A stretch of 64,000 nt of DNA from assembly GCA_963855995.1 (NCBI GenBank), contig OY979716.1:55512907-55576906 (forward strand), in the 5' to 3' direction. The notes under the pieces are model-generated. The model was not told the DNA's origin. It did no database searches and worked only from the letters and a program-made list of their open reading frames with translations. The DNA comes from Muricea muricata. Its lineage: Eukaryota > Cnidaria > Anthozoa > Malacalcyonacea > Plexauridae. The position numbers and the translations under genes are program-made. Position 1 is the stretch's first letter. Each line of letters begins with the position of its first letter. Positions 32,178 to 64,000 of the stretch are shown here, in pieces.

Positions 32178-32230
32178 GTGCCGATTAATCCTTAATCGGC
32201 ACATTGTGCCGATTAAAAATTAATCGGCAC
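32178..32230. promoter_or_regulatory. Two identical-armed 25-bp hairpins
   Basis: Two perfect stem-loops (11-bp arms GTGCCGATTAA, 3-nt loops TCC and AAA) lie at 32,178-32,202 and 32,206-32,230, 35 bp before the recombinase ATG. They could be recombinase-binding or promoter elements (inference). Confidence 0.7.
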
Positions 32231-32264
32231 AGTAACGAGCCGAGCCCGCGGGGAGCGGGAGTTT

Positions 32265-33785
32265 TTGAAAACAAAAAAATATAAACAAAGTTGTGAAGCA
32301 ATTTTTAAAAAAATGGATTATGTTGATTTTTTCGATGCCGAAACTGACAATATTTTAGCTTCAATGGACGAAAACGTATGCTTTCAAGTTGACAACAAAG
32401 CTGTGGCTAATGAAAAGTTGTCTGAAAATAGGTTTCCGGAACTAACAGAAGACGAAGTTGACTCGCTTTACGCAAAAGCTAGTTGTAACAATACGAATAG
32501 GACGACAAAAACATGGTTAAATACCTATATTTCTTGGGCTAAACTTCGAAGCCAGAGGCAGGACATAGAAAACCTATCTCCACGAGAACTGAATTCAGTT
32601 CTTGGCCAGTTCTACGCCGAGTTAAAAAAGATAAACGGCGAAGATTACCAACCGGAAAGTTTAGCTGTAATGCAAGCCTCACTTGATCGTCATTTAAAGG
32701 AAAAGGGCTACACACTATCCATTGTTCGAGACCCACAGTTTCATTCCTCTAACAAAATATTAAGGGGGAAAGCAACTAAATTACGTGAAGAAGGAAAGGG
32801 AAGCAGACCGAATGCTTCAAAGGCACTCACCTGGCAAGAAGAAGCTGAACTGTGGAAAGCTGGCAAGCTCGGTGATCACGACCCCGAAACGTTAATCCAT
32901 ACAGTTTGGTTCACGTTAACTCAACATATGGGACTGAGAGGACGGCAAGAACACGCTCTGGCTGACATTGACGACTTTATGTTTGGAAAAGATGAAAACG
33001 ATGTCGAATATGTCCAATTCAACGATTTGAAGCCAACAAAAACCCGTCAAGGTGGCCTGAGAATGAAACGACGAGGTCAACTTCCGAAAATGTTTGCCAC
33101 AAACGACTCGACATGTCCTGTTGCCATCTTCAGATCTTATCTCTCTCACCGTCCAGAAAAGCTCAAAATGTCTGGTCCACTGTACCTGGCAGTCAAATAT
33201 AAACCCAAAACTAAGGTTTGGTACAAAGCCCAGAAAATGGGAACTAACCGTCTCGGCGAAATCATGAAGCGAATCGTGCGAGGGACAGCAGTTGAACAAA
33301 CTGGAAAGCGTCTAACAAACCATAGCGCCAGAAAAACCGTTGTTAAAAAGCTGGACGACGCGAATATTCCACGAGCACAGATAGTATCGGTTACAGGTCA
33401 TCGCAACGAAAAGTCCCTGGATGATTATGTAGATTCTTTCTCCACCAAACGCTCGAAGCAACTATCAAATATAATCAGCGGGAGTGAAACAGTGAATACC
33501 CTCAGCGGTTCACACAAAGTTGGTCCTCTGCAAATACGAGATGGAAACAACAGCCTTCCTTCTACTTCTGCACCGCCGAATGCTGTTCCACAACGACAAT
33601 TTCCAGTGCTGAATTTGGCAAATTTGGCTCAAAACATGGAAAACTCAACGATAAATGTAACGGTAAACAACAACATCCAAATGCCCCCATCCTATTTCGA
33701 CAATCGAGAATCCGAACAATCCTGCTCAAGTGCTGCTGCTAAGCGACGCCGGGTCCTTCCTTTCTATGACAGTGACTCTGATTAG
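32265..33785 (+). CDS. Crypton tyrosine recombinase (DUF3504-type), intact
   Basis: The 506-residue frame is uninterrupted. An N-terminal core-binding region (residues about 70-180, TKTWLNTYISWAKL onward) is followed by a catalytic domain with Arg225/227 (GLRGRQEH), the HxxR box His353-Arg356 (NHSARK), His379 (TGHRNEKS) and the nucleophile Tyr388 (LDDY). This is the R-H-R-H-Y set of tyrosine recombinases and the arrangement of animal Cryptons and their domesticated relatives (ZMYM2/3, QRICH1, KCTD1). The C-terminus is Ser/Asn-rich and ends KRRRVLPFYDSDSD, with a basic stretch that may be a nuclear signal. An alternative start is Met17 (AAAAATGGATTATG). All catalytic residues are present, so the element may be recent and active. 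Confidence 0.85.
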   Translation: MKTKKYKQSCEAIFKKMDYVDFFDAETDNILASMDENVCFQVDNKAVANEKLSENRFPELTEDEVDSLYAKASCNNTNRTTKTWLNTYISWAKLRSQRQDIENLSPRELNSVLGQFYAELKKINGEDYQPESLAVMQASLDRHLKEKGYTLSIVRDPQFHSSNKILRGKATKLREEGKGSRPNASKALTWQEEAELWKAGKLGDHDPETLIHTVWFTLTQHMGLRGRQEHALADIDDFMFGKDENDVEYVQFNDLKPTKTRQGGLRMKRRGQLPKMFATNDSTCPVAIFRSYLSHRPEKLKMSGPLYLAVKYKPKTKVWYKAQKMGTNRLGEIMKRIVRGTAVEQTGKRLTNHSARKTVVKKLDDANIPRAQIVSVTGHRNEKSLDDYVDSFSTKRSKQLSNIISGSETVNTLSGSHKVGPLQIRDGNNSLPSTSAPPNAVPQRQFPVLNLANLAQNMENSTINVTVNNNIQMPPSYFDNRESEQSCSSAAAKRRRVLPFYDSDSD

Positions 33786-51166: not shown

Positions 51167-54100
51167 TTACAGGACTTTGGTAGGTAGCTGGTGGTAATTG
51201 CAAAGGTGTTGTTGGTTGCTGTTGCGATGATGTTGGACGTGGCTGTAATAACCTTGGAGTTTGAGATATTGCTTGGAACTGCTACGCTGGCGTTTGACGC
51301 GTAGATACAGGTTGCTTCCTTGATGATGTTGGACGTTGTTGCAAAACATTGGATTTTGAAAAGATGTGGTTTGAGATGTTGCTTGGTACTGCAATGCTGG
51401 CCTTTGTTGTGAAGATCCAGGCTGGTCCCTTGATGATGTTGGACGTTGTTGCAATACCATTGGATTTTGAAAAGATGTGATTTGAGATGTTGCTTGAAAT
51501 ACTAACGATGGTGGTCGTTGCGAAGATACAGACTGCTGCAGGGATGTTGTCAAAGGATGACCATCGCATTGAAGGATTGCATTCAACGGTTGAAAAGGGT
51601 TCACTGATCGTGATGTTGTTGATACAATTTGTCGCTGGAAAGAAGACTGCTGGTCATGCTGGGAGAAGGGAGAAGGTCTTCAACATCCATTCTTGGGCTA
51701 TTTTGCGAAGAAATAATTCGTGGCACGATCGTTAACGGGGTTTGCTTCTTGTCCTTGCCTTTCTTTTGCGGCGCTTTTTCTCCCTTTCTGCCTCTGCCTT
51801 TAGGCATACCAAAAGTGACCGCTTTAGACAAATTAACTCTGGTACAACCTTTAGCGCGTTTTGAGCGGACAAGCCAGTGTAGGAAATTTTTTGGTCTGTT
51901 CGTCTTCATGCATGCTGCAGCGACATGAGCACGTACTGCTAGAGATGAGTAGCCCGGGCAATTGTTACATTCAACTCTACCATTCGCAAAAAAATTAACA
52001 ATATGCGGCTTTCTTGGGTCTGAATTGGATGCAGCGACAATAGTATCCCGAGACTGTTCAACCAAAGCCCCTGGTGTTTTTAAAAACTGGACGGCCTTCT
52101 CAACTAGTGCGTCAAGGATACTCCTGGGTATCCAATCGACGCCTCCATCCACCATTTCCGCGCAAATAGGATTCTCTCCATCATTGACACTTTTATTAAG
52201 CACACTTACATTTGATACACTTTCCTGAAATGTGACAGAATCTTTTCCACTGCAATCTCTTTTTGCTTTTCATTCATCTTATTCCACTTTTCTGGTGGTA
52301 CGTTTAGGTGTTGAAATTTATTTCTGATCTTGTACTCCCCCTTTCCAATGATCGCCAACTCAATTTCCTGCTTCTGCATGCTCACTATCTTATTTAAAGC
52401 CACACAGAAGGAAAACTCGTCAACTTTCTTCTTTTCATTGCATTCTTTTCTGACAAATTCTTGGATAGACCTGTTTGTTTGTTCCGAGCGATTTGTCGTA
52501 AACCTTTCAGGCGGAAATCCTAGATCCGCTCTTTGACAGACTGGAGCTATTGCTGAATGTAAGAAAGATGAGCTTTTTTGTTGGCAAAACCATTCATAAA
52601 ATTGCCTTCCCTTCTCATCAAAATTTGACCATCGTTCATTTAAGCTTTCCAACATTGCATAAAAACTTTCTTCATCAGTCGCATCAATTAGGCCACTCTC
52701 ATAGATAGTTCCAATTCGTTGTCCAAAAACGTTGGCAACAATATCGGTCTTTTTCTTGGCAGTTATCCCCAGTTCTAACAGCTTCTTTTCAATGGGTTTT
52801 CTTAGGTGTATTTCGCATAAAAGACTCATTGAACGATCGAAATTGATTTTAAATCCTTCGTGCAAAGCTTCTTCGTCATCCGTCCCGAACGCAAGAACGT
52901 CGCGTAACTTAGGCTCCAGGTTTCTCGGAGTACCTAAGCAGCGTAGGTATCTTTTGTTTTTTTCTCGTGGATTATTACTGGTCCAATAAATGAAGGATGG
53001 TTTCCATCCCTCTTGTTTTCCAATATTAAATGTTGGTAAGTGATATGTGTCACATTATATTCACCAATATTAAATGTTGGGTCCACTGTGAACGGCTTAT
53101 ATTCAGTTGGGTGGCAGCAAAAACGCTTGAGGTCTTTAATCTGCCTGTTGGTCGCCATTACGCACAAGGGTTCGGGTGCAACCCACGAATAAAAGCAGTT
53201 GTTCTTAACGAAGCTTGCTTCTTACCCTCACCGAGCAACCGAAACCATGGATCGTCGTCTTTTATTGGGTCAGCAGTGTTTTGTGCTCTCTGTTGTTTTG
53301 CATATCGTGAAAAATCCTTTACTTGCTGTCGGCCTCTTGGCAGTTCACCAGAGCTTGAGCATTTTGAAATTCCTCCAAGTTCGTCTGCCACCGTCGTATA
53401 TAATACATTGCGAGGTGTCATTCTTTTGGGGGCATTCTTCAGCAGAAATTTTGTGCTTTCCCATGTTCGGACGCAAGGTTGAGAGGATTGCTTTGAATTC
53501 TTTTGAGGACGTGACATAACAGGATGTTCAATATGACCTTTAAATGAATACTGGACCAAGCAAAATCTGTGAAGTTCCCCATTGCTCACTATAAAAAAGT
53601 AAAAAGATGCGTTGAAAATCTTAATGTTTAAACTCTGTTTCAAATTGAGGGCCTATTTCCAAAAGGGGGGATAGGAGGAGGGAATTCCCCCTAAATAACC
53701 CCCCCCCCTAAAATTTGGGGGGAACTCCCACCCAAGTCGCAAAACCTAAAGTACCACTGAGGGCTCTTACAAAAAAAAAATTAGGCATTTTTAGTCCTCG
53801 TCAAGTAAATTATATTACTGTAATGATTAAACTGAAAATCGTATAAATAAACATACGTTCAATCAAATCAATTCGTCGTCGAAAGTCACCGTCGCTTTTC
53901 AAGCGAAAGTATGTTCGTTTAAAAGTTAGCTTTTGACTTTCGCATCCCCCATGATTACATTGCGTCCAGTTATCTTCATACTTAACAAACTGATACTTGT
54001 TGCAGCTGTTATTAATCCACGAACCAGAATCATCGCTTTTGATATCATTTTTCAATTTCAAAGTATTTAAGTCCACTAAGAACAAGCGGTTATGCTCCAC

Positions 54101-54557: not shown

Positions 54558-54648
54558 TAAAATATTAAAATAATACTGCTTTAGTCACAATTTTAACGGA
54601 ATTACTGATAAAAGTACACAGTGTATCAACTATATGATATAACCAACT

Positions 54649-55202
54649 GACCAATTCCATAATGACGAAATTTTGAAAAAAAGTTGAAATAGTAAAATTC
54701 ATTACCACAGCATTAAAGAGCATCCTAAAATTAGTAAAATTGTAAAGTTTGGTCGCGAAATGGTGTAAGAGAAAATATAGCCCTGCAAATTAGGCAAATT
54801 TTGTATACTTTTGTATTACAACCGGAAATTGCTAACTAAATTAGTAACAAACTTGCGCTTGTAATAACAAGGGCAAATAATGTTAGCCAATCGGAGCGTT
54901 TGTTGACATTTTACGCGCTCAACCAATCAGAATACGTTAAATTTACATCATGTAAACAAATGGAGTGAAAAAAGAGTACGTGTTTCTAAGCCATCCGTGC
55001 CATTCGATATTTACCTTTTCACTTTGAAATTCACAAATTCTTATAAAATGGCCTTTTTTCTGAAACTTTACCGCGGGGATTTTTTACATTTGATCTAGAA
55101 CGCCAGATATTTATTTTTAAATAACCGAGTTTTGACGCGTGCGAAGTGTTGGACAATACGAATGAAAAATACTTCATGTACTTAAAAAAAGATTTAAAAC
55201 AA
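54649..55202. repeat. Left terminal inverted repeat of the 5.1-kb element
   Basis: Inverted copy of 59,259-59,776. The match starts at about GACCAATTCCATAAT and ends at GATTTAAAACAA; this arm has an extra insertion of about 36 bp near 54,825. It contains two CCAATC/CCAATCAG boxes. Confidence 0.9.
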
Positions 55203-55378
55203 TAATTGTAGACTTAATGATAGTCTATTACTATATAAAAAACGTTGTAAAAGTATACCTGACGTTCTGAACGGAAGAGGATGTGATGTGTTCGTATCCG
55301 GTTTCGTTTCTGTACGCTGCAAGCATTCATTGCCGGATTCTGCGAGGCTTCGTGTAAACATGTACAAGTTACTTTATG

Positions 55379-56114
55379 TTACCGTGTTTGTGGCTGTGGC
55401 ATTTCAGAACGTCGCCAGTTGCTTATGATTTCGAGCAAATCACTCACTTCTGTTTCCTCCCGATTTTGTTCTTCGATCGGTTCATCGTCGTCGCTTTCTT
55501 CGTATTCGTCATCCCTTTGATCATCGCCTTCATCAGCTGCATTTCCAATGTTGATCAAAGATGAAACGGCGTTGTTTGCAGTCTGACCAAGAGACTCGAT
55601 CTTTGCCAATAACATCGATTGACAAAGTGGACAAGTACTAATCTCTGGCAGTATGCACTGAACATGGAAAGAATGTCCACATCCGTAGAAAACTTTCCAA
55701 ATTGGGCTGTTGTTTGTGCAATCAGGCAAATCACATTTCCTATGAACAAAATTGAAAAGTAAGTTTAAATATAATGTTATTATTGCACAGGCAGAAATTA
55801 TAAACCACCAATGCATAATCCTAACACCGAATCATTTAGTTGTCTCATCATACCAACAGGCATGAAAATTTGAGTAACAACTGTATGTAATGAATAGTTG
55901 AAATTAATATTTGTATATATATATATATATATATATGACAACATCAAACACGATTTCACCTGATGAGTGTGGTAAGCTTTGCTTACCATACGAAACAAGT
56001 TTGTAGTGAATAAATGTTTAAATGAAGTGACTCAAGTTTGTTTTCTTTGTTATATCCGCTCTACTTCGGTATTGAGCACTCTATTCATATGATTCTAAAC
56101 TCAATACTAGTCTA

Positions 56115-56196
<82 letters not shown>

Positions 56197-56252
56197 CGTA
56201 TACGTATACGTATACGTATACGTATACATATACGTATACATATACGTATACG

Positions 56253-56316
<64 letters not shown>

Positions 56317-56332
56317 TACGTATACGTATACG

Positions 56333-56371
<39 letters not shown>

Positions 56372-59050
56372 CACCTCCTTCTTAAGAAATTTATTGCAAT
56401 AAAAAATTATAACCTTTTTACCAATGTTCATTACCTGCTAGGGTCTGATGGCGTTTCAACTGAGGTAAATCCTAGAGGAAGCACTCGATTAGTGACAATA
56501 TACTCTCCAAACAGGTTGGGAAGTTTCCATTTACTAGTATGCTTGGGTTGTCTGCGTGCCCATGGTTGTTGGACTGCCATGCCAGGGTGGTAATAAAGGT
56601 CTTGAAACTTTAGTGTGAGAAATTTGGCTGCTTTTTCTTTCAACTTATTTATTTTTTTGCTACTGAAATGAAATCTTCTGGGAGGGACAAATATAGATTG
56701 GAATGAATGAAGCTCATGTTTGCAAGCATCAATTTCTTTTGCCTTGAATGAAATTTCATCTGCTGTGTCAGTCTCCTTGGTTCTTTTTCGTAATATAGAA
56801 TGAAAGTTCTCAACTGTATATTCATCAAATGCCACCAAATTTTGACGTAAAGTATCAGACATAGTTGAAGCGTTTTCTTGTAAGTGCAAAAATGTTGAAA
56901 GCATGATTAGTAATGCTTTGTTGTAGTGACGTCTTTGGAATACAACAAACATAACCCAGCAGTGGAGCAAGGATTGGCAGAAAAGTTCGTACTTGTTACA
57001 CTTGAACACAATTGAGTAGATGCTCAAAACTAGTGGGGTATAATTGTCAAGGAGGTTTAAGAGTGTTAGAAATTCAATGTCCTTGCATTTATGGAAGACT
57101 GATAAAATCATGTCACGTATGAGTGTCCATCCCCCATAGATTACTTCTAATAATAATGATATTCTCCATGGCTTTGGCTTCTTTGCCAACTTTGCTTTTT
57201 TTCCAAATAGGAAGGAGTACAGATCAGCAAATACTTGGTGGAAATTCAGCAGGACACACTCTCTGGCATTCAGTGAAATATGCAATGGACCAATGAATGG
57301 AACAACATTCTTCAGAGCTGAGGGTACTAAAGGATCACTGGAGTAAATCAACTGACGGAGGAAGAATTGCATGGGCCAATCGCCGACAAAAGGAGCAATA
57401 AAATTACTCAGATAAACATTTAGACCACTGGAAAGCATTTTGTTAATTGCGGTGAGAACATTTTCGCATGATTTCAGGTCAAGTTGTATGCTGTCAACAA
57501 GTTTGGTGTTGTCCATGGCTCTCATCTGCTGAATCTCAGTTTGTTGATAGTCATGGACAAGGAGTCGTTGCCTTTCAGCTTCGGGATCGAAGTATTTGGC
57601 CAGTACCCAATCAGGCATGTTTTCAACATATGGTTTTGAAAGAATGGACAAGTTGCTGGAAACGAAGCTCTTGACATTTGCAATCTCAACAGGGGACTTG
57701 GATTTGACATTATTTCCATAATGTGGGATTGCCTTCACATTTGGGAAAACTTTTAGCAGAAGAGTGGTCATGTGAATTGCTTGTGTCTGGGTCTTTGCCT
57801 CAGGTCTGTGTTGTGTATGTATGTTATGATAATCATCAATACAAAAGATGATGAGCTGGTTCTTCTCAATTGCTGATTCAATAAAGGTAAGAACACTACT
57901 TGAATGAGTGGATGATGATGATTTTGCTAAAACTTTAACAGTTTGTGGGTGAGCAGCCATACCAAGATTTCGGAGCGATTCAAGTCCTTGCTTAGTAATG
58001 CCAAACTGTTGAAGAGTTCGAGATAGAGCTACTTGAAATGCATTTGATTTTTGCGATTGGGAGTACATCATGATATAAATTATTACCATTGTTCGGATAC
58101 CACTTAGATGTTTACGTTCTTCAGACATGTTGTGAGAGTATATGGCATCTCTTATGCACTTATAAAGATTATGGGCACCAGCATCACTGCATATTTTTTC
58201 AAACATTTGAGGATCCATTTCTGGCTGGGTTAATTTTGAAATGAAAGATCTGATTTTGAAGATGTCATCCTTGAAATCAGGACAAAGGGATGCTTTCTTC
58301 ATTAATGCCTCATGTTCTTCTTTTTCAAGGAAAACACCATCAGCTGTTTGGCACTCTTTGTCTGCAACTTGTTTGGATTCTTGACTGATGTCAACTGTTT
58401 GGCTTGGTGAACTCAAAGTTATGGTACTGGAGTTACTTAATTGGCTATCAGGTGTTTGTTCCATGTTATTTGAGGTGATTTGACTTAGGCTTGGTGTCGT
58501 AGATGAATTCGCACTGTTTGTTGAACCACTGCTTGATTGGCTGTTGCTTTGCTGATTATTACTTTCCCCTGATGTTTGGCTTGTTATAATGTCAATGTCA
58601 TCAGTTGTTGTTTGCAGCATTTCAGGCTAAATGCATAATGAGATTGTGCGTTTTAGTGTGTATTGCATGAAAATATCTTTGGCCTGTAACCCTAATGGCC
58701 CAGAGAAAAGAAATTGTTGAACACTGTGTTCTATCAAAATTAAACTGCAGCATTTCAGTATTTCTACATACCTGTCTTTCTACTTTGATTTTTAGTTCAT
58801 CAGCCTGATTATTTGACAGAAGTCTAGAAAATTTTCGTTTTTTGAAACACTCGTTGAGACATGTTGTGCAAAGATTTTTTATGCCATGACCAGGAGTTGA
58901 TTCTTTTCCCATCTCTTGTTCGATGTATTTTTGAAAAATAGTGCCAAGACTGACCAAACCACGGGCTCGAAGGTTTACAATCTTTTCGTCTTCTCGTTTT
59001 GACCACGTTTCGTGAAAAGGATTGCTGCATGTTCTTTGAAATCGTGGCAT
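55379..59050 (-). CDS. 943-residue element protein with RING-H2 finger; candidate transposase
   Basis: Exons: 59,050-58,772, 58,626-56,435 and 55,739-55,379. Both introns have GT/AG edges (GTATGT...TTTAG and GTAATG...TCATAG), and the lengths sum to 2,832 nt, exactly 944 codons with no internal stop. Start: ATG at 59,050 ([10 protein letters not shown]). Residues 1-93 hold Cys/His groups ([10 protein letters not shown]); 97-180 are Ser/Thr/Gln-rich. The core has a hydrophobic strand ending in two Asp ([12 protein letters not shown], Asp357/358), later FVGDWP (Asp509) and [10 protein letters not shown] (Glu699), which could be an RNase-H D-D-E triad (inference). Residues 826-863 are a C3H2C3 RING (CDLPDC, GCGHSFH, CPLC), then an acidic tail. 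The RING suggests ubiquitin ligase activity or protein binding. I recall similar unnamed proteins in cnidarians and sponges. Confidence 0.75.
56110..56380. repeat. Compound microsatellite in intron 2
   Basis: Runs of TATATG, then TATACG, then TA, then a shorter TATACG and TA. It lies entirely in the second intron of the 943-residue gene. Long Tyr-Ile frames here are artefacts. Confidence 0.95.
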
Positions 59051-59258
59051 TTTGCAAGTGTTTTTGTTTAAGCTAATATTTTGACTCGAAAAAGGAACAG
59101 TTTTGCTGTAAAAAGCGCGCGAAAGTTTTAATACATTATACGAATATGTTCGCGTACACAATATAGCTGTTTGTGTGATATTTCCCCTGTTTTTTGCAAT
59201 GAATTTGATTTAGGATTTCGTTAAACTTGCATATTTTATGATCTTCGCTATAGTTTCG

Positions 59259-59776
59259 TTGTTTTAAATCTTTTTTTAAGTACATGAAGTATTTTTCATT
59301 CGTATTGTCCAACACTTCGCACGCGTCAAAACTCGGTTATTTAAAAATAAATATCTGGCGTTCTAGATCAAATGTAAAAAATCCCCGCGGTAAAGTTTCA
59401 GAAAAAAGGCCATTTTATAAGAATTTGTGAATTTCAAAGTGAAAAGGTAAATATCGAATGGCACGGATGGCTTAGAAACACGTACTCTTTTTTCACTCCT
59501 TTTGTTTACATGATGTAAATTTAACGTATTCTGATTGGTTGAGCACGTAAAATGTCAACAAACGCTCTGATTGGCTAACATTATTTGCCCTTGTTGCTTG
59601 TAATACAAAAGTATACAAAATTTGCCAACTTTGCACGGCTATATTTTTCACATTTTACAACGTTTTGCAACCAAACTTTGCAATTTTACTATTTTACGAT
59701 GCTCTTCAATGCTGTGATTATGAATTCTCCTATTTCGACTTTTTTTCAAAAATTTTGTCTATTATGGAATTGGTCC
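59259..59776. repeat. Right terminal inverted repeat of the 5.1-kb element
   Basis: Inverted copy of the left arm. The gene's start codon lies about 210 bp inside its inner edge, so the arm probably carries the promoter, including two CCAAT-type boxes. Confidence 0.9.
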
Positions 59777-59988
59777 ATTAAGATATTAACGAAAACCTTA
59801 AAAGATGCTCTACACCTTTTGGTTACTCCAGATCTTTTGACACTGATCTTTTCTCCACGCCCTCTAACTCAATATGTCTAAATTTATATTTAAAAAACAC
59901 TAACTATATTACGACGAAGAGTTGTATTAATATGATGGAGTTGGATTAACATTAGAGTTTATATAAATTAAATTAGTTTTACCATACC

Positions 59989-60127: not shown

Positions 60128-60250
60128 TTTGAAGACATTAAAAGAGAATCTTAAAGCTAGTAAAACTGTAAAGTTTGGTCGCGAAATGCTGTAAAATGCG
60201 GGAAATATAATTAACCTTTCGAAGTTTGCAAAATTTGTATATTTTTGACC
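60128..60250. repeat. Fragment related to the outer TIR segment
   Basis: Resembles 54,710-54,815 (GTAAAGTTTGGTCGCGAAATG) in the same orientation. Relic of another copy of the family. Confidence 0.65.
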
Positions 60251-61114: not shown

Positions 61115-63978
61115 TTAATCGTCCTTAGACTGTTCCTTAATCTTCTCCTTTGCAATCGCTGCTGACTTCCTTTCTTGTCTTTTCTTGGTTTTGTGTTCGT
61201 TTTCTTTGTTACATGCGTTGTGCATTTCTTGATCTTCTTTAACTGCACTCCGTATCTCTAAAGGACATACCAACTGCATGGGTCGTTCCAAGTAATTACT
61301 TTTGTGTAAGACAACAACTCCCCTAATAACACCGTCCTTTCCTTTCACGTGTTTGACCACTTTGCCTTTCATCCAACGTCCTCGGTTCTTTTCTTCTCCA
61401 ACAATTAGTACAATCTCCCCCATCTCTGGTACTGGTGATATAGTTTTATTCACACGATGGTACTCCATTAACCCATGAACGTATTCCCGCTGCCTCCTTG
61501 CCCATGCGTGTTGTCTGGCCAAAGTGAGACGCTTGTGAAAAGCACCGACTACATCATCATCATCTTCTTGCTCGTTTACTCCTCCTAATGCGTATGAATA
61601 GTATTTGGAGTTAGGACCTGCTCTTCCTCTTGATTACTTTCGACATATGTTAGAGGTCGGTTATTCAAATGCCTCTCGATATCCAATATCACCGTCTCTA
61701 ATTGGTTGAACAGCAGGTGCGATTTTCCCAAGGTCTTGTAAAGCGTCGCTTTAATCTCTTTAATTAGCCGTTCATATAGTCCTCCCCACCATGGAGACTT
61801 AGCGAGATTGAATTTCCAATGTATGTTCTGGGTCGCCAAATAATCATGTAGACGTTCACTCTTCCTGATTTGTTTTATCCACTTCGACGTCGCTATAAAT
61901 GTAGTGGCGTTGTCCAATACAATACGACTTGGCCTCGTTTTCCTTGTGATGAACGAGTTCAGCTTCTCTTGAAATTCGCTAGCGGTTTGTGATTTTGCCA
62001 GCTCTAAATGTACTGCCTGAGACGTTGCGCACGTAAATATGATTTCATAGCATTTCCCTTCTTCCTTCTTCGTCACTTTATAAATCAGAGGACCTGCGAA
62101 GTCCACTCCCGTAGTTTCGAATGGTCTCCCAGGCGTAGTGCGGAATTCGGGTAGTTGAGAGGTTGCTGGGGCTTTAAAAGGCTTTGCTGAGAAAACTTTA
62201 CAAACATTGCAGTTTCCGATCACTTTCTTAACCTTTGATCTGAGTTGAGGAATCCACCAGTTCTCTCGGATTAATGGCATTGTGCTCGCTACTCCCAGAT
62301 GCATCTCGTTATGGACGTGAGCAATAAGTTTGTTCACAGATGTCCCTTCTCTCAAGTACGTTGGTTGATATCCTGCAATTCTCCCCTCACATTTCAATAC
62401 TCCGTTCGTAGTGTCTTCTATCAATTTCCACCCCGGTGATTGCAGAGATTCTGGTACGTCATTGCTTTGCACTCTTCTTACCCATTTATCTCTGGCGTCG
62501 ACGATCTCCTCCGTCGTTAGTGGGCCTTTCGTTCACTGACTTTTCTTAGCTTTGAGCCGACAGTTGCTGACGAAGCGCAAAATCCATGCTGTCACTCGTA
62601 AGGTACACCAGTATGTACTTCGATCAAGCAGCTCATCCCATTCATCTGCTTCTTTCTCTTCGCAAAGGAAGACGGTTTCTGTAACTTTGTGCTCTTGGTG
62701 TGTTGCTTGGTTCTTCTTTAGCTCCGGCTGCTCTGGCCAATTTTCTTTGTTGAGAAGCCACTCCAGTCCAGTGATTAACTTCCGCGTTCCAACATTTTTT
62801 GTCGTTGCAGACGTCGCGGTAGATTCGTTTACCTTTGGCAAGATCACGCCTAACGGGTCGTAGATGCTGCCAAGATGACTGAGAAAGCTTCTTTTGGTGA
62901 TTGGTTCGTGTTCTGGGTAATTAGGAACTGTTACCTCGAGCGATTCTTCTCGTTTGTCCCATACGTGTCCCAGAAGCTTCGTAGGATTTTCCATGTCGTT
63001 GCTGTCTAACCATTCGACGTTACTTTCCCACTTATGAACTGGAAATTTACCGCTTTCGAGTATATTGCTAGCTTCTTCTTTAAACTTTGCTAAGCTTGCC
63101 ACATCGTCTCCTCCGTGTAGGAGATTATCCACGTACTTGTTTTCCTTTAACGAGTCGATGGTATCTTTGTATTCAGAGGGTTGATTCTCGAGGTGGTGTT
63201 GCAATGTGGCTCCCAGAATGAAAGGGCCCGCCTCTGCCCCAAACGGTACGCAAGTAAATCGCAGGTGATTCTCGATGCCGTTTACGTTGTACAGAAATCT
63301 AAACGAGTCGCGATCTTCTCTAACCTCAATCTGAAGGAAGGCCTTCTGAATGTCTGCAAGAACTAGATTTTGCATTGAGCGGGTTCGCACAAGTATGTCC
63401 CAAAGATGAGGCTGTAAAGAGGGGCCTGTAAACATACAATCGTTGATGCTGTCAGATGTTGTGTTGGGTTTGGCGCTCGCATCAAAAACCATTCGAACCT
63501 TTGTCGTGGTTGCATTTTGACGTACAACTGGTTTATGTGGCATATAGTAAACTCGGTCTCCAGTAGGGATTTCTGGGGCATTCTCAACCACACCAGCGCT
63601 TAATTGTTGGTTTACGATATCATCATATTCTTGTTTAAGTTCTGGTGTTTTATCTAACTTCCTATTTACGTACTGTAGCCGTTTTCTGCTTTGCTGTTCA
63701 TTTGTATCCATAGGTTTTCTGCCCGAAATCCATGGGAATGTAATCTGGTACCTTCCGTCGTCCTTTCTCGTAATGTTCTCCTTGAACTCGTTCAAAATCT
63801 CACTGTTAGTGTCTCCCCTATCTTCCACTCCCAAAACGTCTAAGCTAAACAGTTTCTCACAGTCACTCTTATCTCTAGTGAACATACATTGATCATCACT
63901 GTAGTCATCACCACCATGAACTACCCAACCAAAACTGGTTTCTTCAACTATTGGGTCCCCTTCTCCCCCTTTGCACAC
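61115..63978 (-). pseudogene. BEL/Pao pol polyprotein (RT, integrase), damaged
   Basis: The reverse transcriptase segment (63,978-62,533) has [29 protein letters not shown] and the catalytic box KYVDNLL; an N after the Asp is common in this group. The integrase (62,472-61,585) has a zinc-binding CNVC end, [13 protein letters not shown] and a final Glu in [12 protein letters not shown], the D-D-E triad. The C-terminal SH3-like DUF5641 (61,522-61,115) has EMGEIVLIVGE and GRW. One in-frame TGA separates RT and integrase parts (62,533-62,535), and a frameshift lies near 61,590, so this copy is not intact. The pol start lies outside the window. Confidence 0.85.
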
Positions 63979-64000
63979 GTTTTCTGTACAAATGCGACTG

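Follow-up and report, generated by a model that had tools for sequence, protein, structure and literature searches.

What kind of mobile element occupies the locus described here in Muricea muricata, and does the single gene found in it encode the transposase? The locus lies within a stretch of 64,000 nucleotides (GenBank assembly GCA_963855995.1, contig OY979716.1, positions 55,512,907 to 55,576,906; hereafter, the window, whose coordinates are used throughout). An earlier sequence-only reading described it as a transposon with long inverted arms and a spliced gene for a RING-finger protein of 943 residues. Comparison with the window's own genome (453 Mb in 74 contigs, the subject of all genome searches below) supports the transposon and its gene and changes the borders. 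The element is, in our judgment quite likely, a cut-and-paste DNA transposon that was active recently and whose lineage is not assignable to any named superfamily. The 943-residue protein is probably its transposase.

Borders of the Element

The inverted arms had been read as terminal inverted repeats (TIRs) of over 500 bp that enclose an element at 54649-59776. A genome search with the left arm, in which 40 of 2,730 candidates were scored, yielded at least 69 matches, and these form two classes once the window itself is set aside. The majority lie within the first ~222 bases of the arm and often stand as closely spaced inverted pairs, the structure of a short palindromic miniature inverted-repeat transposable element (MITE). 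The few matches of the second class lie within bases ~214-552 and are paired about 4-20 kb apart. The boundary between the two classes, at about base 217, separates an outer part of ~217 bp, belonging to the MITE, from an inner TIR of 337 bp. A single TIR of over 500 bp is ruled out, because the genome copies divide the arms at a 9-bp duplication. The transposon with its spliced RING gene was recognized correctly, as further copies and many relatives in the genome support, and its TIR length and borders had to be revised.

The complete transposon, with borders established via copies in the same genome, is 4,730 bp long and spans 54866-59595, its coding strand being the minus strand. The 9-bp target-site duplication gcttgtaat flanks it on the left (54857-54865) and on the right (59596-59604). 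The left TIR (54866-55202, plus strand, 337 nt) starts with AACAAGGGCAAATAATG, is 99% complementary to the right TIR (59259-59595, minus strand), and is common to other copies. Outside the element lie the left (54644-54865) and right (59605-59779) halves of one palindromic MITE, both with approximate outer borders. When these halves were joined minus one gcttgtaat, so that the duplication is single in the joined site as compared with the MITE copies, each of the eight MITE copies fetched gave a single alignment across the join; these alignments are about 390 bp long, contain small gaps, and show 79-91% identity. Therefore, a transposon with 337-bp TIRs was inserted into an unrelated MITE and duplicated 9 bp of it. 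A degraded second MITE piece (60136-60247; 77% identity) is located ~360 bp to the right of the split one.

Copies, Subfamilies, and Recent Movement

The sequence-only reading depended on the existence of a second copy with the same TIRs, and four more members of the window element's family were fetched from the genome. One of them is found at 98.97 Mb of contig C1. The copy at 51.8 Mb of contig C2 (loci L010-L012) is enlarged by about 15 kb, the copy at 78.0 Mb of C1 has an internal deletion (3,849 bp), and the copy at 53.5 Mb of C1 (L014-L015) is broken by insertions, one of which is within the right TIR. The window copy and these four start with AACAAGGGCAAATAATG and end with CATTATTTGCCCTTGTT. 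The flanks in the family are gcttgtaat (window), gtcaatact, tcgggaagt, tacgacagt, and tgttagctc/tattagctc, the last with one mismatch. Among the insertions carried by the copies at 51.8 Mb of C2 and 53.5 Mb of C1, the one inside the TIR has the ends CTGCCTCGTACCC/GGGTACGAGGCAG.

The element also has more distant relatives in this genome. A six-frame search with exon 2, the longest exon of the gene, in which 61 of 742 candidates were scored, revealed at least 65 related coding stretches, a few entries being two pieces of one copy; by hand count, 29 of these matches are free of stops from residue 57 or earlier to residue 727 or later. The exon 2 alignment comprises 18 sequences out of 30 loci, the window's included and L044, L046, and L047 left out. 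At 80% identity these sequences fall into seven subfamilies, the first members of which are 57-69% alike. Inverted ends of 271-672 bp were identified in 19 of the 29 oriented loci; in six (L026, L037, L039, L051-L053) the locus ends within an arm, and no inverted-end pair was found in L025, L030, L047, and L048. Wherever both ends lay within the locus, the termini read AACAAGGG, the damaged L049 excepted.

The same insertion signature accompanies these termini. Both ends could be read in 23 copies, which come from the L044/L046 group and from all but one of the seven subfamilies; the remaining subfamily (L051-L053) has one end only within the locus sequence. Perfect 9-bp duplications, all of them different, flank 20 of the 23 copies. 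Of the remaining three, two carry one mismatch (L013/L027, L034) and one has a damaged end (L049). The duplications show no strict target: of 19 of the 20 perfect ones, 12 have A at position 7 and 11 have T at position 9, base counts that are uncorrected for background. The definition of TIR ends and target duplications from genomic copies, as the sequence-only reading had proposed, thus reveals TIRs at both ends and a duplication of fixed length, the features by which an element is placed among cut-and-paste (TIR) DNA transposons. DNA-level insertion bounded by TIRs and accompanied by a 9-bp duplication recurs across several families, all of which have a single conserved gene. These families, diverged within one genome, share termini, gene layout, and duplication length.

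Some of this movement is recent, since DNA identities within subfamilies are mostly 96-99.8% (only pairs with more than 80% identity over more than 600 bp were counted). Some pairs of the L035/L037 subfamily and of the L044-L047 group are less similar, at 80-85%. The compared copies retain introns and, therefore, moved through DNA. The ratio of nonsynonymous to synonymous substitution rates (dN/dS) was computed for 18 chosen pairs of the aligned sequences. It equals 0.21 for L035-L037, two members of the same subfamily (dS 0.44), and 0.11 (dS 2.0) and 0.09 (dS 2.6) for two pairs that are near saturation; ten further pairs are saturated.

The Spliced Gene and Its Protein

The gene consists of three exons on the minus strand, 59050-58772, 58626-56435, and 55739-55379 (279, 2192, and 361 nt). 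Joined at GT..AG boundaries, they form exactly 944 codons including the stop, as the sequence-only reading had proposed from consensus splice sites, and encode 943 residues. Intron 1 is located at 58627-58771 and intron 2 at 55740-56434; the latter holds a TATATG/TATACG simple-repeat array (about 56102-56371), and a similar array is present in L026, which belongs to the window element's family. Matches to exon 1 and to exon 3 were each found by tblastn in nine of the ten tested loci, L046 having stops in both exons. The first donor site stands immediately past the aligned end in five of eight loci and six bases farther on in L037; the alignments of L035 and L051 ended elsewhere. The other splice signals, as far as printed, are at the expected places: the first acceptor in 4/4 loci, the second donor in 6/6, and the second acceptor in 7/7. 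Given these matching exons and splice signals in other loci, the three-exon layout is not due to chance, in agreement with the initial assessment. A chance open frame is likewise ruled out by the related genome copies, the kept exons, the splice signals, and the dN/dS values. Simple-repeat sequence apart, this gene accounts for every open frame of 140 codons in the element.

Exon 1 encodes an N-terminal C-x4-H...C-x2-C pattern whose four positions (C8, H13, C61, C64) are invariant in all seven aligned sequences. In Pfam, exon 1 had no meaningful match: five families matched one member each, with a best E-value of 0.0048, which looks like chance. Exon 2 encodes a linker rich in Ser, Thr, and Gln followed by the conserved central domain. 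Exon 3 ends the protein with a RING-H2 pattern (C-x4-C...C-x-H-x2-H-x2-C...C-x2-C), an acidic tail, and the stop codon, so that the C-terminal finger and tail of the sequence-only reading are indeed present. Nine loci have an exon 3 match, and in the six sequences aligned all eight ligands, in the C3H2C3 order, are invariant. Three RING families have a match in every one of the six members, and several more match five; the RING matches of the window protein are all under the curated cut-offs. Transcription elongation factor 1 leads the PDB matches of the exon 3 profile (E 0.0004), its alignment spanning both the ligands and the tail; the remaining matches, RING E3 ligases among them, are weak (E 0.04 and more). 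A PADLOC run produced no matches.

The Central Domain

If the protein is a transposase, the catalytic residues should be in the central domain. The candidate Asp-Asp-Glu (DDE) triad, already put forward in the sequence-only reading, comprises D357/D358, D509, and E699 of the protein, that is, D264/D265, D416, and E606 of exon 2, all invariant in 18 of 18 aligned sequences. Asp357/358 is preceded by a hydrophobic stretch (LIIFCIDD), for which a crude Chou-Fasman average predicts a strand before Asp357, and Asp509 lies within FVGDW. These features are compatible with a triad of D357, D509, and E699, which we propose as a hypothesis, and the cut-and-paste element is probably of the DDE type.

Several observations weigh against this assignment. 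Exon 2 has 20 invariant acidic residues, the proposed triad and 17 others, and therefore conservation does not single out the triad; 209 columns are identical across all 18 rows of the alignment. The same crude Chou-Fasman calculation gives neither a clear strand before Asp509 nor a helix at Glu699. The distance between the first and second Asp would be 152 residues, compared with 68 reported for Dada (PMC3706591). Five near-identical pairs have dN/dS of 0.09-1.2 and are uninformative as to selection. Finally, profile searches of Pfam and PDB linked the central domain to no known transposase in a convincing way. No Pfam family is listed for this domain of the window protein; the 18 aligned members were scanned with a maximum E-value of 10 and with the HMMER filters on, which drop most matches above 0.1, and six families match one or two of them with chance-like E-values of 0.0035-0.13. 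In PDB, the single sequence has three chance-level matches (best E 0.4) and the profile has none. Scans of IMG/VR and GTDB contigs, which require exact short peptide patterns first, confirmed no relative. Thus, the initial failure to match the protein to a named superfamily is upheld within Pfam, PDB sequences, and these pattern-based scans. Likewise, no superfamily that bears a RING finger or makes 9-bp duplications turned up as a match among the papers listed from the open PubMed Central literature.

Possible Relatives

Judged by how they insert, Rehavkus and other Mutator-like elements (MULEs) and AcademH are the published groups that come closest, compared here by description only. MULE duplications are given as 8-11 bp, often 9, in PMC6446971, where MULEs with 9-bp duplications and TIRs of hundreds of base pairs are known, and the 9-bp duplication of our element fits this range; arthropod MULE TIRs measure 13-1193 bp according to PMC13359780. 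Rehavkus is described with a 9-bp duplication, TIRs of 26-400 bp, one open reading frame, and a PHD finger (PMC6446971). Our element resembles it in the duplication, the long TIRs, and the single transposase-like gene with a zinc-binding finger, and differs in having RING-H2 instead of the PHD finger. A divergent MULE or a member of the Rehavkus branch is nevertheless somewhat unlikely, as the MULE domain (PF10551) is listed for none of the 18 members under the Pfam settings given above. A C/DxxH motif between the second Asp and the Glu is said to be common to MuDR, hAT, P, Kolobok, and Dada (PMC10045372 and PMC3706591), whereas the invariant H449 of our group sits in GPLH, an argument that holds only if D416 is the second Asp. 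A minisatellite beside the 3' TIR, as described for Rehavkus, was not seen in most of the nine loci scanned, some of which lack part of the element. Six of the nine show no array; in L026, as in the window, a simple-repeat array occupies part of intron 2, a 15-bp unit occurs twice close to the 3' TIR of L028, and the array of L030 is at the far beginning of that locus. An AcademH-type element without a helicase would share the duplication length, 9 or 10 bp for AcademH according to PMC10045372. We consider it improbable, since the 943-residue protein has no helicase match and the Pfam scan lists RING families alone. Slightly less credible still is a passenger or accessory role of the RING protein, with another transposase mobilizing the element in trans: Pfam scans found no recognized transposase domain in the element, but the RING protein is the sole gene found in it, recurs in the subfamilies examined, and is under purifying selection where this is measurable. 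As for Dada, the N-terminal zinc ligands, spaced C-x4-[C/H]...C-x2-C, and the presence of a C-terminal finger are similar; according to PMC3706591, Dada elements differ in making 6-7-bp duplications, lacking TIRs, targeting small RNA genes, and having CCHC as the C-terminal finger.

Another possible relationship, which we regard as unlikely, is to mobile elements with DUF6589 (PF20231), abundant in the same genome (104 places among the matches listed, of which loci L054-L065 were examined). It is suggested by a weak similarity near two of the candidate catalytic residues, the first Asp and the Glu. In an ungapped comparison of conserved blocks, the block around the first Asp (D1; D-x8-H-x6-Q-x4-H) and that around the Glu (E) each score best at an acidic residue of the DUF6589 profile, in the right order: D1 on the Asp of "DN" (z about 5) and E on a Glu (z about 4.2), each ranking first of about 620 positions. 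With a hidden Markov model (HMM) of the D1 region, the two top ranks among 424 frames go to a near-identical pair of DUF6589 frames that contain D1 (E 0.34 and 0.74; the best of 617 background frames has E 1.5), and both align in one register, D-x8-H-x6-Q-x4-H. On the other side, hhalign assigns DUF6589 a probability of 0.2%, hmmscan of the 18 members has no PF20231 match, longer HMMs of the RING-protein group and the reverse search with the DUF6589 HMM find nothing, the E-region HMM fails to find the DUF6589 Glu, and the blocks around the second Asp and the His have no sensible match. The references of the block comparison share one profile and, not being independent, count as one result. In shuffled DUF6589 proteins, D1 scores this high occur at 19 (L062), 80 (L065), and 126 (L054) of 165,960 positions, and E scores at 20 (L054) and 45 (L062) of 170,440, corresponding to chance rates of about 0.07-0.5 (D1) and 0.07-0.17 (E) per protein; in frames from the window the counts are 0, 6, and 9 of 18,168 for D1 and 1 and 2 of 26,806 for E. 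Without its Asp and strand, the D1 block loses most of its signal and is not conspicuous any more in L054 and L065. Thus, membership in DUF6589 is unsupported by hmmscan, hhalign, and the HMM searches, the RING-protein group having no significant profile match to it, and the weak, non-significant resemblance is kept as a lead only.

Other Elements in the Window and the Genome

The name DUF6589 was not found in the open PubMed Central literature. Some DUF6589 loci (L057, L061) contain a C2H2-looking insert. AcademX is said to carry a nuclease (PMC10045372). In this genome 26 XPG_I matches are listed (for example, L068), several of them on short similar frames that may represent XPG-nuclease mobile elements. 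No clear link between an XPG nuclease and the DUF6589 elements emerged from the distances between the listed places (26 vs 104), the nearest being 13 kb and the next 65 kb. At one XPG locus (3.5 kb), no relative of the RING protein was detected (best tblastn E 2.0).

Elsewhere in the window, a 522-codon open frame on the plus strand (32217-33785) matches DUF3504 and QRICH1, and phage integrase below the cut-off, and is a tyrosine recombinase, presumably Crypton-like. On the minus strand, 61115-63999 contains retroelement pieces with DUF5641 and Integrase_H2C2, which we take to be BEL/Pao-like; the piece at 62533-63999 has no Pfam match. Open pieces at 51601-53652 (minus strand) have the look of a Mutator-type transposase, with a TNRSEQTNRSIQEF stretch and a CxxC...H finger; two of these pieces were scanned against Pfam, and neither matched. 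The genome also has one GFP-family place, with three stops in read-through, probably exons and introns. Two translated pieces of it match fluorescent proteins in PDB, one with 2rh7 as the top match and the other with red fluorescent proteins, all of which we assume to come from Renilla and other cnidarians, in line with a cnidarian host.

Proposed Mechanism and Meaning

We return to the reading of the element as a cut-and-paste transposon with its own transposase. The 943-residue protein would both cut and join DNA. Its N-terminal C-H-C-C finger may bind the TIRs, and the central domain, as a putative RNase-H-like DDE nuclease (D357, D509, E699), would excise the element and join it to the target at cuts staggered by 9 bp. 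The RING finger and the acidic tail together could serve as a regulatory or protein-contact module, perhaps as a ubiquitin ligase that limits the transposase level or engages host factors.

A further-reaching interpretation, which we offer tentatively and hold to be possible rather than probable, is that of a new superfamily of eukaryotic DDE transposons that has expanded and recently moved in a cnidarian, its transposase being fused to a RING-H2 ubiquitin-ligase module that possibly regulates the level of the protein itself or acts on chromatin and repair factors of the host. Should the central domain prove to be a DDE nuclease, the family adds a deep branch to the tree of eukaryotic transposases. 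With several near-identical copies in one genome, it would lend itself well to a transposition assay. The fusion of a transposase with a RING finger, if true, would allow one to test ubiquitin signaling as a mobile element's self-control of its movement.

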